From: Nitrospinia bacterium
Lineage (GTDB): Bacteria > Nitrospinota > Nitrospinia > Nitrospinales > JAJDAT01
DNA length: 64,000 bases
Reading direction: 5' to 3'
Assembly (NCBI GenBank): GCA_029261715.1
Contig: JAJDAT010000025.1
Location: forward strand, 1 to 64,000
Part shown: positions 16,585-40,665 of the stretch, piece by piece
Position numbering within the stretch: position 1 is the stretch's first letter
Layout: each line of letters starts with the position of its first letter
Notes under the pieces: model-generated
The model's input: only the letters and a program-made list of their open reading frames with translations
The model's database searches: none
What the model was told of the DNA's origin: nothing
Made by a program: the position numbers and the translations under genes

Positions 16585-18807
16585 CTAGGAATCAATTTTA
16601 TTTAAAGACAACCCATATAGTCTTAAAAGATTAATTACGGTTTGGTCGGTTAGTCCTAGCCGAACTGTTTCTTCTAAGTGATGGATGGCCTTTTGTTTTT
16701 CTCCAATTTGAGTGTACAAAATGGAAAGATTTAAATACCCCTTGGCATAGTCTGGTTTTAACGCTATCGCCGTTTTGAACATTTTTTCTGAATCGGTTAA
16801 TTGGTTTTGTTTTGCATAAACCTGTCCTAATGCGTCGAAAGTTTCTGCCATTGGAGACTGGGATCTTGTCGCTACTTTAAGATGCTTTTCTGCATTTTCA
16901 AAATCTCCTAGGACATTAAAATTATCGCCAAGGTTGATTAGGGCGGTTTGATGATTTGGGTCAAAGTCCAAAACTTTTTGGAAGTTTTTGTTCGATTCTG
17001 CAAGATTATTACTTGATTGGTGTATTAGGCCCATTTGCAGATAGGGCGTTAAGGACGGTAATTTTTGACTTGAAGCTTTTACAAAATAATTGAGCGCTTG
17101 ATCGGGTTGATTTTCATGTTGATAGAGTTTCGCGTGTTTTAGTAAGTCCGCGTAATGATGTCTGAGTTCGATTTCTTTTTGGTTTTTTGCTGGAGTTAAT
17201 ACAGTTATCAAAAATATGAGAAGAATCGTTGTAGAGCCGATTACAGTTAAACAATATTTTGGATTAAAATTGGTTTTTTGTTTTTCCTTTAGCGTAGAGA
17301 TTCTCTGGAATAAAAAACAGATGAAAAATAAAACGCCTGCCTGAACAAGCGGAAAAACGGCCATAAAAAGAAAATCTTTAAAATTCCAAGTTTCTTCGTG
17401 GTTTAAAGTTAGGAGACGAAACCAGTTAGACGATCGTAACAATGTTTGAGTATGATCAAAAAGAAGCTTGGGAGTATAAATTATGGCTTTGAAGGCAAAT
17501 TCAGGATCGTTGTGATGAATAATTATTTTATATTGAACCATCATTGAATATTGAATTAGGAAGCAAATTCCTATGAAGCTATACGTCATAAACTCAATTG
17601 TTCTGGTTTTAGTATGCGATGCCCAATTTAGAATGCCGGCCAAGCCGATAGCCAATAGAGGAATAGAAGAAATAAAATGGCGCTCCCCATAGGAGTCGGA
17701 ACTTTCGGGATAAATCGATATTATAAAAACTAATGCTCCTAGATAGGCGACTATGCCTGGTCTTATAGAGTTAAATTGTTTGTCTGCATAAAGACCCATA
17801 ACAGAAAAAATAAAAATGGGAAAAGAAAATAAGATTCCCCATTGCAGGCTAAAAAAGACGTTAAATAAACTTTTAAAAATCTCTGGAGTGAATAGTGACG
17901 TTAAGCCAGCGCCGGCCATTTCAAAATGGCGCAATGGTAAGGGGACCCCATTGAGTTTCTGCCACATAAAAAGTTGAGGGGATAAAGCTAATAAAAAAAA
18001 CAAAACCATCCAAAAAGATCGATTTAGAAAAGCTTTTAAAAGTGGTTTGTTATCGTTATATGCAAAAGGTTTCTTTAAAAATATTTGATCGAAAAAATAA
18101 AGAGCAAAGAATGAAATATTGATTATTCTGACCATGCAAAATAATCCTAGTAACGCTCCTAGAAAAGCATGGTCTATTGGTCTTTCCGATTCTCTAACTT
18201 TTAACCATAAAGATATAAACATTACCGCCATGAAAAATTCGGTTGTGTGCGCCATCCTGTCTCGGATAAATGAAAAATAGATGAGCGGAGAACATAACCA
18301 AATTGAAACTGTTACCAATAAAGCGATTTGTTCGGTTGTGATGCGTCTGACAATTTTATTTAATTGAAGGAGAGCTATAAACAGATAAGCGTGAGAAGCT
18401 ATTGCCGTCGACATATAATATGGGATCGAATAACCGTCTGTTGATATTTCGAGACCAGAAGCATTTAAGATTAAAGCGATGATATGACCAACGAGAAAAA
18501 AAGGAAAAAATAAGACGCTTTGTCCGATTTGCCAATTGTTGAATACGTAACCCGTTGGCATAAAGGTTTCACGATGGGCATAATTTAGTTCGTTAACGAA
18601 ATCAAAATCGCCATCGATCAAACCTGACCTCAAATACGCGTAGTAACCGGTATCGTCGCCTGGGTCGATATTATTTAAAGAATAAAAGCCTGTGTGTATT
18701 GTAGGAGAAATCCAATCGTTAAAATTTCCCAAAGGGATTAATAGCAGGCAAAGTAAAAGAAATATCGTAGATAAAAACCAATATCTTTTGTTGAACTCAG
18801 AATCCAA
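16585..18807 (-). CDS. polytopic GT-C-like membrane protein with C-terminal TPRs
   Basis: A 740-residue integral membrane protein. Residues 10-520 contain about eleven hydrophobic helices, and the first extramembrane loop carries GDDTGYYAYLRSG. An acidic pair in this position is characteristic of lipid-phosphate-sugar-dependent (GT-C) glycosyltransferases. A final helix near residue 500 is followed by about 200 residues of tetratricopeptide repeats (for example HQTALINLGDNFNVLGDFEN and KPDYAKGYLNLSILYTQIG). The combination suggests glycan or lipid-linked sugar transfer with protein-binding repeats on one side of the membrane. No named family is assigned; the enzymatic role is inferred. Confidence 0.7.
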   Translation of the reverse strand: MDSEFNKRYWFLSTIFLLLCLLLIPLGNFNDWISPTIHTGFYSLNNIDPGDDTGYYAYLRSGLIDGDFDFVNELNYAHRETFMPTGYVFNNWQIGQSVLFFPFFLVGHIIALILNASGLEISTDGYSIPYYMSTAIASHAYLFIALLQLNKIVRRITTEQIALLVTVSIWLCSPLIYFSFIRDRMAHTTEFFMAVMFISLWLKVRESERPIDHAFLGALLGLFCMVRIINISFFALYFFDQIFLKKPFAYNDNKPLLKAFLNRSFWMVLFFLLALSPQLFMWQKLNGVPLPLRHFEMAGAGLTSLFTPEIFKSLFNVFFSLQWGILFSFPIFIFSVMGLYADKQFNSIRPGIVAYLGALVFIISIYPESSDSYGERHFISSIPLLAIGLAGILNWASHTKTRTIEFMTYSFIGICFLIQYSMMVQYKIIIHHNDPEFAFKAIIYTPKLLFDHTQTLLRSSNWFRLLTLNHEETWNFKDFLFMAVFPLVQAGVLFFICFLFQRISTLKEKQKTNFNPKYCLTVIGSTTILLIFLITVLTPAKNQKEIELRHHYADLLKHAKLYQHENQPDQALNYFVKASSQKLPSLTPYLQMGLIHQSSNNLAESNKNFQKVLDFDPNHQTALINLGDNFNVLGDFENAEKHLKVATRSQSPMAETFDALGQVYAKQNQLTDSEKMFKTAIALKPDYAKGYLNLSILYTQIGEKQKAIHHLEETVRLGLTDQTVINLLRLYGLSLNKIDS

Positions 18808-19015: not shown

Positions 19016-19429
19016 ATGAAAAAACAGGGTTTTATAGTTTTGGTTATTGCCTTTGCAATTGTACTGGTTTGCGGAAGTTCTAGCTTTGCCGCTGATCACA
19101 ATTCGCATGAAGGACATTTTCCTATGAAAGAAATGGGGAAGGGCCTTTCTTTGCATTGTGTTTTAAAAGGCCATGATCTTAGTAATCCTTGTCCACACCT
19201 TGTAGCTAAAGGCGATTTGGGTGAAAAATATTCTCTTTCTCTTCCTTGCGGAGGAAAAACTTCGAATCAAAATCCATTTTCGTTCAACCCTGAAAGTTCA
19301 TCATTCTTCGATTTATTAAACGCTCCAGATTATAAAGTCCATAACTTGAATTGGACTATCCCCTTATATATAGTTGGATACGCTCCCCTTGAGCTTAGTC
19401 CACTTGACCCTCCTCCAAAGCTTTCCTAA
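19016..19429 (+). CDS. small secreted His/Cys-rich protein
   Basis: A 137-residue exported protein. A Sec signal peptide (residues 1-27, ending SSSFAAD) precedes a mature part with HNSHEGHF, LHCVLKGHD and NPCPHLV. That gives three Cys and seven or so His in the first half, which looks like a metal-binding segment. The C-terminal third is Pro-rich and hydrophobic. It resembles in style the two small HNHD/Cys proteins at 37.0-38.1 kb near the ZnuD-like receptor. A Fur-like palindrome sits directly upstream, so metal-controlled expression is likely. Function beyond metal handling cannot be given. Confidence 0.7.
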   Translation: MKKQGFIVLVIAFAIVLVCGSSSFAADHNSHEGHFPMKEMGKGLSLHCVLKGHDLSNPCPHLVAKGDLGEKYSLSLPCGGKTSNQNPFSFNPESSSFFDLLNAPDYKVHNLNWTIPLYIVGYAPLELSPLDPPPKLS

Positions 19430-19732
19430 TAGTTTATTTTTGGAAGTATGAACGGTTGTATCTTCCGTTTGAGGCGACCATATTCCGCTTGATTTAAATT
19501 TTATATTTAATTTCACCGGGCAAATTTCTGAAAACGTCTTAATTAACGTTTCAAAATACTTTTTAAGATCCACGCGAGTGAACCAGGTTTTTTCCTCATA
19601 ATTATCATTTTTTTATTAATGGGGTTGATAGCTTTAGTTTGTCTGTTTGTGGGGCTGCGTTCTCTAATTTCTATCAAATGTTATTTAGGTTTTTTCAGAA
19701 GTTTGTTTGTACGTAAATTTCTATTTACCCAT

Positions 19733-19819
19733 TAGTTTGGCAAGTTTTGACAACTTTCTTTCCAAACTACCTCCTTAACAAGATTGGGTAAAAGAGGCCG
19801 AGTCCTTGTGGGCTCGGCT
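19733..19819 (+). ncRNA. candidate structured RNA, copy A
   Basis: An 87-base non-coding element able to form three helices. P1: 19733-19740 with 19762-19769, enclosing AAGTT-TTGAC-AACTT. P2: 19770-19773 (start of a CCTCC) with 19794-19797. P3: a ten-pair GC-rich hairpin from about 19796 to 19819 with a TTGT loop. Copy B, 157 bases on, keeps the loops and spacing but has different, still complementary, stem sequences. The strand is assumed from genes downstream. No known riboswitch consensus was recognised. Confidence 0.55.
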
Positions 19820-19889
19820 GAACGCATAGTGAATGTTTTATGGAAGTTTTTGTCGAATATATTAGAAAAACGATGTTCCTTTTGCCTTC

Positions 19890-19976
19890 GGTTTAATGAG
19901 TTCTGACAACTTTCTCATTAAACCTCCTCCATTACCACAAAAGGCAAGAGGAGACCGGGCCCTTGTGGGCCCGGTT
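19890..19976 (+). ncRNA. candidate structured RNA, copy B
   Basis: The second 87-base element. P1 has eleven pairs (19890-19900 with 19914-19924) around the conserved TTCTGACAACTTT. P2 pairs CTCCTC (19924-19929) with GAGGAG (19948-19953). P3 is ACCGGGCCC-TTGT-GGGCCCGGT (19954-19975). P3 is followed by TTATTT, so this copy could end transcription. Compared with copy A, nearly all stem bases differ but pairing is kept, while loop and CCTCC bases are conserved. Confidence 0.55.
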
Positions 19977-20000
19977 ATTTAAACTTGTTGAAGTAGACTT

Positions 20001-20174
20001 AAGAGAACTTACCGAAAATTTAGATTTGCCAAGAGCTAAGTCTTTGAATAAGGGCTTGGTGATAGCAAAACAGTAAAAACGCGATAACGAGTTAAAGAAT
20101 AAGTCAAACTCGAATATTAAAAATCCACGGATGTATTCTTTTAAAAGCATAATAAATGCTTTAGAGGCTCTCTT
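20001..20174. repeat. MITE-like element, copy 1
   Basis: A 174-base non-coding element. Its ends form imperfect inverted repeats (AAGAGAAC at the left, GGCTCTCTT at the right), and its interior shares TTTGCCAAGAG, TAAGGGCTT and GATAGCAAAACAGTAAAAA with the copy at 40.5 kb. It ends 5 bases before the ATG of the next gene and supplies the GAGG that could serve as its Shine-Dalgarno. No ORF, so it would be non-autonomous. Confidence 0.6.
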
Positions 20175-20179
20175 AAATC

Positions 20180-22738: not shown

Positions 22739-23917
22739 TCAATCAACTAATTCATCGAGGTCTTTTTGCCATAACATTGGAGTATAAATCAAAATAAAAA
22801 GCAAAAAACAAAGCGTCCAAAGTGTAGCGGAACTTATAACCCAATTAATGCTGTTGCCAGGTGCAATCATTATGAAAAATACTCTTATAAAAGCGGCAAG
22901 CTGCATTAGGAGAAAGCTTAGTTTAGTTAGGTTTGTTGCGATTTTGTCGCGTCCAGTATGGCCCAGTATCACTCGGCACATCATTCCGAGCGTCATAGAA
23001 CCAATTGCTCCCGCTGTAAAGGCATGCAGTGCAATAGAGAATGGAAGAAAGCCAAGCGCTGAGACACCTAGCAAAAATAGCCCTAGAATGACCCAGCTAT
23101 ATCCTATATGAAGAATCGAGACCATAGGATCATTTAATATTCTGAGTGTATGATAACGCCGCAGACGTAGTATGTGAATGATAGCGGAAAAAAAGGCTGC
23201 TCCGGCAAGAATAGCTCCTTCCAGTTTTATAAATATCAGTGTCAGAATAATCAAAGCAATTGATAGGATTGCCAGAATATCTAATTTACTTTGTGTTGTT
23301 TCTTTAGCTTCTTCTCCTCTTTCTTGTAAAGCATCCACGGTAAAGGCTGGAATGACACGCCCGCCAATCAGAGAAATCATAGCGATGATAACCATTACAG
23401 CGACATAAAGCGATGTGCGGTCTTTGGTAACAAGGAAAACCATATCGCATGCAAATAAAATACTTAGTAATACCAGAAATACAAAATTACGTTTTTCCCA
23501 TGTTTTAATAAGCGGAATAGATATACTAACTGCTAGTGACAGAATAAACGCGCCTTCAAGAACTAAAACGGTAACCTCAGATAAACCCAGATCAAAATTC
23601 ATAACCACTCGCCCAGCTAACCAAAGAAGGCACAATCCTAGTAAATACAATCCGCGCACCGGAACGCTATCCGTCCAGTTCGCCACAGCTGTAAGCAAAA
23701 AACCTGCAATAATTGCCATAGTGAAACCATAGATCATTTCATGCGCATGCCATGATATAGGATCTATCATGAATAATGGAGGCGCGACATAACCTGAGTA
23801 AAATCCGCCCCATATAATCAAACTAATAATGCTAAAGGATGGGCCTAAAAGAAAGAAGGGGCGAAATCCGTATCCCAAAAAAGGATGAGCAAAAATAACT
23901 CTATAAGATAGAGACAT
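22739..23917 (-). CDS. nnrS: NnrS family heme-copper membrane protein, copy 1
   Basis: A 392-residue polytopic protein of the NnrS family, haem- and copper-containing inner-membrane proteins that protect against nitric oxide stress. About twelve hydrophobic helices are visible. His residues expected in the core occur in DPISWHAHEMIYGF (residues 52-65), ALHAFTAGAIG and RVILGHTGR, all family hallmarks. A second copy at 31.5-32.7 kb on the other strand is about 80-85% identical. The two promoter regions share a palindrome, ACAAA-N6-TTTGT, 30 bases or so before the start. It is the last gene of a minus-strand series carrying globins. Confidence 0.93.
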   Translation of the reverse strand: MSLSYRVIFAHPFLGYGFRPFFLLGPSFSIISLIIWGGFYSGYVAPPLFMIDPISWHAHEMIYGFTMAIIAGFLLTAVANWTDSVPVRGLYLLGLCLLWLAGRVVMNFDLGLSEVTVLVLEGAFILSLAVSISIPLIKTWEKRNFVFLVLLSILFACDMVFLVTKDRTSLYVAVMVIIAMISLIGGRVIPAFTVDALQERGEEAKETTQSKLDILAILSIALIILTLIFIKLEGAILAGAAFFSAIIHILRLRRYHTLRILNDPMVSILHIGYSWVILGLFLLGVSALGFLPFSIALHAFTAGAIGSMTLGMMCRVILGHTGRDKIATNLTKLSFLLMQLAAFIRVFFIMIAPGNSINWVISSATLWTLCFLLFILIYTPMLWQKDLDELVD

Positions 23918-28319: not shown

Positions 28320-28379
28320 TTAGTTGATTAGAGAACAAATTTGTATTTGTGAGATTAAGTTATAGTTCCCGGGAATGAT

Positions 28380-28487
28380 TTCCCTTATTTGTTTAAAGGA
28401 AACGGAGGTCGCGTTTACGCTCTTTGGACCGCTTTAATTGACAATGGTCCAAAAGTCATGATGTCGCGGGGGCGGTTGCAGTCATAA
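28380..28487 (+). pseudogene. 3' relic of a third Asp-box lipoprotein gene
   Basis: An open stretch of 36 codons including the stop, about 85% identical in DNA to the last 108 bases of the lipoprotein-2 gene (22617-22724). Both encode LFKGNGGRVYALWTAL and NGPKVMMSRGRL before TAA. Most of the 16 or so base differences fall at third codon positions, so it diverged as a coding gene and is not a recent copy. Everything 5' is missing, replaced by the end of the NO region. Confidence 0.75.
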
Positions 28488-31485: not shown

Positions 31486-31513
31486 AGTAAATCGATATTT
31501 GCAGGAGATTAAT

Positions 31514-32692
31514 ATGTCTCTATCTTATAGAGTTATCTTTGCTCATCCTTTTTGGGGATACGGGTTTCGCCCATTCTTCCTTTTAGGCGCATTATTTAGC
31601 ATTATTAGCTTGCTGATATGGGGTGGCTTTTATGCTGGGTATGTCGCGCCTCCATTGTTCATGATGGATCCTATATCTTGGCATGCGCATGAAATGATCT
31701 ATGGTTTCACTATGGCAATTATTGCAGGTTTTTTGCTTACGGCTGTTGCTAACTGGACCGATAGTACTCCGGTGCGTGGATTGCACTTAATAGGGTTGTG
31801 CCTACTTTGGTTAGCTGGGCGTGTGGTTATGAATTTTGATCTGGGTTTTCCAGAGATTGCCGTTTTAGTTTTTGAAGGTGCGTTTATTCTGACGCTAGCA
31901 GTTAGCCTATCTATTCCGCTTATTAAAACATGGGAAAAACGCAATTTTGTATTTCTAGTATTACTATGTATTTTATTTTCATGTGACATGGTTTTCCTTA
32001 TTACCAAAGAGCGTACATCACTTTATGTTGCTGTTATGATTATTATGGCTATGATCTCTTTGATTGGCGGGCGGGTCATTCCAGCCTTTACCGTGGATGC
32101 TCTACAAGAAAGAGGAGAAGAAGCCAACGAGACACCGCAAAATAAATTAGACGTTTTAGCGATCCTATCACTGGCGCTGATTATTCTGGTTCTAGTATTT
32201 GTAAAACAGGAAGGAGCTCTTCTTGCCGGGACAGCCTTTTTATCTGCTATGATTCATACACTTCGTCTGCGGCGTTATCATACATTCAGAATATTGGATG
32301 ATCCTATGATCTGGATTCTTCATATCGGCTATAGCTGGCTAATTCTAGGGCTGTTTTTGGTAGGTTTCTCAGCGCTGGGCTTTCTTCCATTCTCCATTGC
32401 GCTACATGCCTTTACAGCGGGAGCAATCGGCTCTATGACGCTTGGAATGATGTGTCGTGTGACACTAGGGCACACTGGACGCAATCGAATCGCATCAAAG
32501 CTAACAAGGCTAAGTTTTCTTTTGATGCAGTGTGCCGCTTTTATGCGTGTATTTGGTCTAATGATTGCGCCGGACTATAGCATTGAGTGGATTATAGGTT
32601 CCGCTACACTTTGGATAATTTGTTTTTCGCTTTTTATTTTGATTTATGCTCCGATGTTATGGAAGAAAGACCTTGATAAATTGGTCGCTTAG
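31514..32692 (+). CDS. nnrS: NnrS family heme-copper membrane protein, copy 2
   Basis: A 392-residue protein, close paralog of NnrS copy 1, with the same helices and His-bearing motifs (DPISWHAHEMIYGF, ALHAFTAGAIG, RVTLGHTGR). The ATG at 31514 is the right start: AGGAG lies 7 bases upstream and the protein then begins MSLSYRVIFAHPF like copy 1. Its predicted role is protection against NO in the inner membrane. Differences from copy 1 are spread evenly and conservative, so both are probably functional. It is flanked by two direct repeats, suggesting the gene moved as a unit. Confidence 0.93.
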   Translation: MSLSYRVIFAHPFWGYGFRPFFLLGALFSIISLLIWGGFYAGYVAPPLFMMDPISWHAHEMIYGFTMAIIAGFLLTAVANWTDSTPVRGLHLIGLCLLWLAGRVVMNFDLGFPEIAVLVFEGAFILTLAVSLSIPLIKTWEKRNFVFLVLLCILFSCDMVFLITKERTSLYVAVMIIMAMISLIGGRVIPAFTVDALQERGEEANETPQNKLDVLAILSLALIILVLVFVKQEGALLAGTAFLSAMIHTLRLRRYHTFRILDDPMIWILHIGYSWLILGLFLVGFSALGFLPFSIALHAFTAGAIGSMTLGMMCRVTLGHTGRNRIASKLTRLSFLLMQCAAFMRVFGLMIAPDYSIEWIIGSATLWIICFSLFILIYAPMLWKKDLDKLVA

Positions 32693-40415: not shown

Positions 40416-40532
40416 TTCTTTGCCTCCAAAAAATTACGGTTGAATTAAAGCGCTAAGCTTTTTTAGTTTATTTTTAAAGCGAGTTGGGTTTCAATTTTAT
40501 TGTCATACCATTGCGGGTCAAGTCAAAAATTT

Positions 40533-40665
40533 AAGAGAACCTCTAAAAATTCCAATTTGCCAAGAGTGAAGTCCTTATTCTAAGGGCTTCGCGATAGCAA
40601 AACAGTAAAAATATGAATTGTAAGAAATTTCCATAGATTATTATAATCGAATAGTGGGGTTTTGT
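40533..40665. repeat. MITE-like element, copy 2
   Basis: This copy starts AAGAGAACCTCTAAAAA and contains TTTGCCAAGAGTGAAGTCC, TAAGGGCTT and GATAGCAAAACAGTAAAAA, closely matching copy 1. AAGTCCTT and AAGGGCTT form an internal hairpin. Its right end is not identifiable, so the coordinates there are approximate and it may be truncated. Confidence 0.6.

Follow-up and report, generated by a model that had tools for sequence, protein, structure and literature searches.

A tandem pair of structured elements as candidate sibling RNAs with a predicted antisense contact at a DUF4399 gene start

The window, meaning the whole 64,000-nt stretch of DNA analysed, carries a gene for a secreted 137-aa protein (19016-19429) and two BNR lipoprotein genes (from 20180 and from 21474). 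Between them lie two similar elements of about 100 nt in tandem, element A at 19720-19819 and element B at 19877-19976; both flanking genes are on the + strand, as are A and B in the orientation proposed here. A MITE-like repeat follows B at approximately 19998-20177, directly before the lipoprotein ATG; it is characterised by the terminal inverted repeat TTTAAGAGAaCCTCTAAA, an internal hairpin and at least 12 partial copies in the genome. A related MITE piece was seen elsewhere in the window, at 40531-40611. The 137-aa protein contains His and Cys residues, has no Pfam match and possibly represents an undescribed family; homologues occur in 42 of 77 genomes across the phylum, and its own genome holds several copies. 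ARAGORN revealed no tRNA or tmRNA in the window.

In the earlier note on this DNA, two 87-nt segments sharing the blocks TGACAACTTTCT, CCTCC and CCTTGTGGG at equal spacing were described, along with P1 and P3 stems and a TTGT loop, and all of these features were recovered where they had been placed. The resemblance of A to B exceeds chance (blastn within the window, 72% over 76 nt, E 7.6e-5); outside the elements, the likeness of the sequences between and around them is not significant. The extent of 87 nt had to be corrected: the segments exist, but the elements begin further 5', at positions 19720 (A) and 19877 (B), with an outer helix, P0, that had been overlooked. With the folding start set 5 nt 5' of the core alignment for each copy, the MFE and centroid folds of A and B were identical in architecture.

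In the computed structure, both copies consist of the first strand of P0, a 1-nt spacer, the P1 hairpin with a 13-nt loop, an unpaired strand of 15 (A) or 16 nt (B) that opens with (U)CCUCC, the second strand of P0, and the P3 hairpin, which stacks directly on P0 in the MFE folds of both. P0 encloses P1 with 11 pairs in A and 12 in B, four of which are changed on both sides. Element A (MFE -37.6 kcal/mol) comprises a P0 5' strand of UCU, a bulged A and UUUACCCA (19720-19731), the P1 5' arm (19733-19744), the mostly unpaired P1 loop UUUUGACAACUUU (19745-19757), the P1 3' arm (19758-19769), the single strand CCUCCUUAACAAGAU (19770-19784) with the anti-SD motif CCUCCU, the P0 3' strand UGGGUAAAAGA (19785-19795) and a P3 hairpin of 10 pairs with a UUGU loop (19796-19819). 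In element B (MFE -50.9 kcal/mol), the P0 5' strand UCCUUUUGCCUU (19877-19888) forms 12 contiguous pairs with the 3' strand AAGGCAAGAGGA (19941-19952), enclosing the P1 5' arm (19890-19900), the unpaired P1 loop UUCUGACAACUUU (19901-19913), the P1 3' arm (19914-19924) and the anti-SD single strand UCCUCCAUUACCACAA (19925-19940); a P3 hairpin, again of 10 pairs with a UUGU loop (19953-19976), is followed by ATTTAAA. Constant between the copies are the P1 loop UUYUGACAACUUU, CCUCC and the P3 loop CCUUGUGGG.

Exposure of CCUCC was found to depend on the ends chosen for folding. When B was folded with shorter ends, CCUCC mispaired with GAGGAG; at full ends it is free, because the G residues of GAGGAG are used in the 12-bp P0. 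With the ends corrected, CCUCC is exposed in the MFE folds of both copies, with an unpaired probability of about 0.64-1.0 for the first eight bases of the strand in A and of about 1 for the strand in B. A pseudoknot between CCUCC and GAGG was considered and rejected, as the correct ends place GAGG(A) in P0.

RNAalifold analysis of A and B with the corrected ends revealed 31 pairs, none of which is broken, with 10 changed on both sides and two on one side. When the pairing partners were re-dealt, two-sided changes averaged 5.1 and none of 500 shuffles reached the observed 10; sliding the partner strand by 1-3 columns reduced them to 0-2. In a separate permutation test, which used a version with 28 pairs, the result was 2 of 20000, and a P0-like helix was regained by column shuffles in 6 of 5000 cases. 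The claim that the stems vary while pairing is kept is thus borne out, except that P1 of B, which had been called wholly different, has six of its 10 aligned pairs identical to those of A and the remaining four compensatory.

Fold energies and G.U pairs prefer the + strand for both elements. The z-scores were -5.43 for A and -8.19 for B on the + strand and -4.31 and -6.17, respectively, on the - strand. In addition, the one-sided changes (U-A to U.G and C-G to U.G) and a G.U pair common to both copies are possible on the + strand only. A protein-coding reading of the + strand (DNFLxKxPP) was rejected, as beyond CCTCC the two copies continue in different frames and a stop is met in A.

For homology searches, two covariance models were built from the A/B pair, R1 comprising P1 and P3 only and R2 the full fold. 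A search of the 5.33-Mb genome returned A and B only, both of which match by construction (R2, 115.6 and 116.5 bits, respectively). In the 76 other genomes of the phylum, no homologue was accepted; the sole extra match (G008:C5), a hairpin at a gene end, lacks the P1 motif and was discarded as a chance match. When about 85,000 species genomes were scanned for the pattern, three matches turned up, all lacking the fold and likewise rejected; pattern scans of viral collections gave none, and blastn against plasmids and phages gave chance pieces only. The homologues with compensatory changes that had been looked for across the phylum and these collections were thus not found, and consequently the covariation is that between the two paralogues A and B alone. 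The source genome is the sole member of its family among the genomes searched, so such a distribution is expected of a lineage-specific RNA family. Screening of A and B with the Rfam covariance models gave no match at the gathering score, which agrees with the earlier failure to recognise a riboswitch consensus and provides no membership in alpha-r14, AbcR or any other family; sub-threshold matches to TD-2, ylbH and rli42 were at chance level, far under the gathering scores.

A possible target emerged when the intergenic region (750 nt) was used as blastn query against the whole genome. Besides copies of the MITE, it matched at C1:8526-8552 with a 27-nt stretch of B (E 0.0018), which lies there in antisense to the start of a gene for a 136-aa DUF4399 protein (Pfam E 3.6e-23), His-rich and putatively periplasmic. 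The mRNA of this gene reads AGGAGGAUGUUUC AUG AGA AAG UUG UCA at its translation start, and the stretch 19904-19930 of B is complementary in 25 of 27 nt to its SD, AUG and codons 2-5 (G000:C1:8526-8552, gene on the - strand). The P1 loops of both copies are complementary to codons 2-5, and the P1 3' arm of B is also complementary to the surroundings of the target AUG. In A, a 12-nt block and CCUCCU, both present in B as well, are kept at a 10-nt spacing identical to that of the target blocks. The exact 12-mer TGACAACTTTCT occurs at four places in 5.33 Mb, namely within A and B, over the DUF4399 start in antisense orientation, and at C15:187446, the last of which is intergenic, lacks the remaining fold and was discarded.

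The DUF4399 start is the best target candidate obtained. With B, it scored 22.0 and ranked first among 1036 starts sampled from 1.26 Mb (best background 12.5), a rank that is no independent test, because the gene had been chosen by a genome search with B; the fairer figure is that of the background fit, built on start regions only, which yields an extreme-value E of about 2e-5 for an assumed number of about 4800 genes. With A, the score was 13.0 (rank 2), which falls short of significance by itself (E about 2). Structure-aware cofolding ranked the gene second for A, second for B and first jointly. The exposed seed shared by both copies is complementary to this start, with a match that is strong for B and weak for A alone. 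The other four DUF4399 paralogues of the genome showed no match to A or B, and the matching sequence was absent from those orthologue starts that are readable in relatives.

Concerning expression, a scan for sigma-70-like promoters of A and B gave nothing above chance, and P3 of A is not followed by a U-tract. Among GC-rich gene-end hairpins in sampled stretches of the same genome (L143-L162) and the window, 6 of 13 have at most two T in the next eight bases, and terminators in this genome may be non-classical. Hfq (PF17209) was not found in the genome, which is about 97% complete, although control genomes were positive; A and B would therefore work Hfq-free or with another chaperone.

We infer that A and B are transcribed as separate RNAs of about 100 nt, that they act by repression and that the match to the DUF4399 start is a regulatory contact. 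In the computed fold, P0 closes the structure around the P1 hairpin and the single-stranded CCUCC strand; P3, stacked on P0, may form the 3' end or lend stability. The P1 loop presents UGACAACUUU(CU) as a first predicted seed and the following single strand CCUCC(U) as a second, and in the proposed mechanism both would pair with the initiation region AGGAGG-N10-AGAAAGUUGUCA. Loop against codons 2-5 and strand against the Shine-Dalgarno sequence would together keep the ribosome from binding; among the targets found, the DUF4399 gene, located elsewhere in the genome, is the best. It is with moderate confidence that we regard A and B as tandem paralogous trans-acting sibling sRNAs, encoded on the + strand, that block ribosome binding at the predicted target. 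The proposal of trans-acting siblings with an exposed CCUCC, already put forward in the earlier note, gains strength from the + strand bias, the exposure of the motif in both copies and the antisense match to a gene start.

A bolder version of this model is offered tentatively. A and B may constitute a new, lineage-confined family of Hfq-independent bivalent antisense RNAs, in which a closed fold keeps the seed loop at a fixed distance from the anti-SD strand so that the two grip both ends of a translation start at once; the family would be dedicated to one DUF4399 gene, from whose start it may have arisen as an antisense copy.

Sibling sRNAs are taken to require at least two similar genes per genome, and here there are two copies with one consensus fold. 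Tandem sibling sRNAs acting at the RBS are known from Neisseria as NmsRA/NmsRB (PMC5362039) and NgncR_162/163 (PMC9973317). As proposed for A and B, these are paired sRNAs of similar structure that share an intergenic region, with 70-78% mutual identity and the anti-SD in a loop and the neighbouring single strand. They differ in having three successive stem-loops and in being Hfq-bound, whereas A and B have a hairpin inside P0 and a stacked P3, no Hfq was detected in their genome, and they match no Rfam family. In arrangement and proposed mode, A and B resemble NmsRA/B and NgncR_162/163, while being unrelated to NmsRA/B. The alpha-r14/NfeR1 group, CCUCCUCCC sRNAs of Alphaproteobacteria that block translation starts (PMC10746234), shares with A and B an invariant, unpaired anti-SD beside strongly differing stems; however, these RNAs have three hairpins each, with CCUCCUCCC in every one, in contrast to the single CCUCC strand and separate 10-12-nt seed loop of A and B. 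The siblings AbcR1/AbcR2 (named in PMC10746234; reviewed in PMC4211561) are also paralogous sRNAs with common seeds, but screening with Rfam gave no match to A and B in sequence or structure. We file A and B under the functional class of sibling anti-SD sRNAs, as new at the family level. If confirmed, they would provide a case of sibling sRNAs from a bacterium without detected Hfq, in a phylum with few sequenced species, and would have a specific target and a bipartite seed (anti-codon-2-5 loop and anti-SD strand) kept by two diverged paralogues. Two paralogues alone can expose a structured RNA where relatives are unsequenced.

Four other explanations of the locus were weighed against the sibling sRNA model. 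The pair could be a tandem cis-regulatory element, a riboswitch-like aptamer plus P3, either within the 5' UTR of the lipoprotein gene downstream or at the 3' end of the 137-aa gene's mRNA. Riboswitches are known to occur in tandem copies, A and B share the strand of both flanking genes, and their fold is compact and closed with conserved loops. However, nothing like A or B lies upstream of the homologous BNR genes of relatives, so that the gene association is not conserved, and about 200 nt including the MITE part B from the lipoprotein ATG. Cis-control of the downstream lipoprotein genes, the alternative previously suggested, is therefore unlikely. The conserved bases, moreover, lie in an apical loop and a single strand, not in a junction, and an Rfam match is lacking. 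Overall, a cis-regulatory element of either kind appears doubtful to us.

The functional strand could also be the - strand, where each copy has a Shine-Dalgarno sequence (GGAGG) that would serve the start of a tiny ORF (leader peptide or small toxin), the + RNA possibly being an antisense antitoxin. The ORFs concerned are MRKLSELIKPKAKGTSFF in B, starting with ATG, and MERKLSKLAKLMGK in A, starting from TTG; the two have lengths of 14 and 18 codons. B indeed has a good SD and ATG on this strand, the RKLS codons are conserved, and the likeness to the DUF4399 gene start would be automatic. Yet A has no ATG at the position of that in B, the wobble positions are conserved as well, and the short products would be polar and cationic rather than hydrophobic. 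The next - strand gene is met only at 18807, and the - strand folds are less stable, with the wobble pairs lost. A - strand translation start is hence disfavoured against the sRNA model and considered quite improbable.

A decayed or non-functional duplication, or hairpins acting at the DNA level (mobile-element ends, protein sites) with no expressed RNA, would be in line with the occurrence in one genome only and with the adjoining MITE. The homologues of the 137-aa and BNR lipoprotein genes are separated by a TonB-dependent receptor gene in at least one relative (L051), and the coordinates in other relatives leave space for such a gene at the same place; the RNA pair and the MITE (window 19430-20179) thus stand where L051 has the receptor gene. 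A search for a remnant of this gene at the A/B locus gave no match, however, the flanks are unlike and there are no further copies. The 10 compensatory changes on both sides, with every pair intact, call for selection on pairing, and we consider a non-functional duplication or DNA-level hairpins quite improbable.

Least probable, we judge, is that A and B are trans-acting sRNAs whose match to DUF4399 is incidental, their real targets being other mRNAs bound through a generic anti-SD CCUCC, for although known sibling sRNAs have many targets, GGAGG is abundant at translation starts and the target score of A is not significant, the 25 of 27 matches of B lie far beyond the background of 1036 starts.

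Two further observations were made elsewhere in the window. Two very similar NnrS genes are present in opposite orientation (22739-23917 on the - strand, 31499-32692 on the + strand), and at 28371-28484 a stray fragment matches the C-terminal part of the BNR lipoprotein gene with 87% identity over 38 aa. Together, the NnrS pair and the fragment suggest a past duplication or rearrangement.
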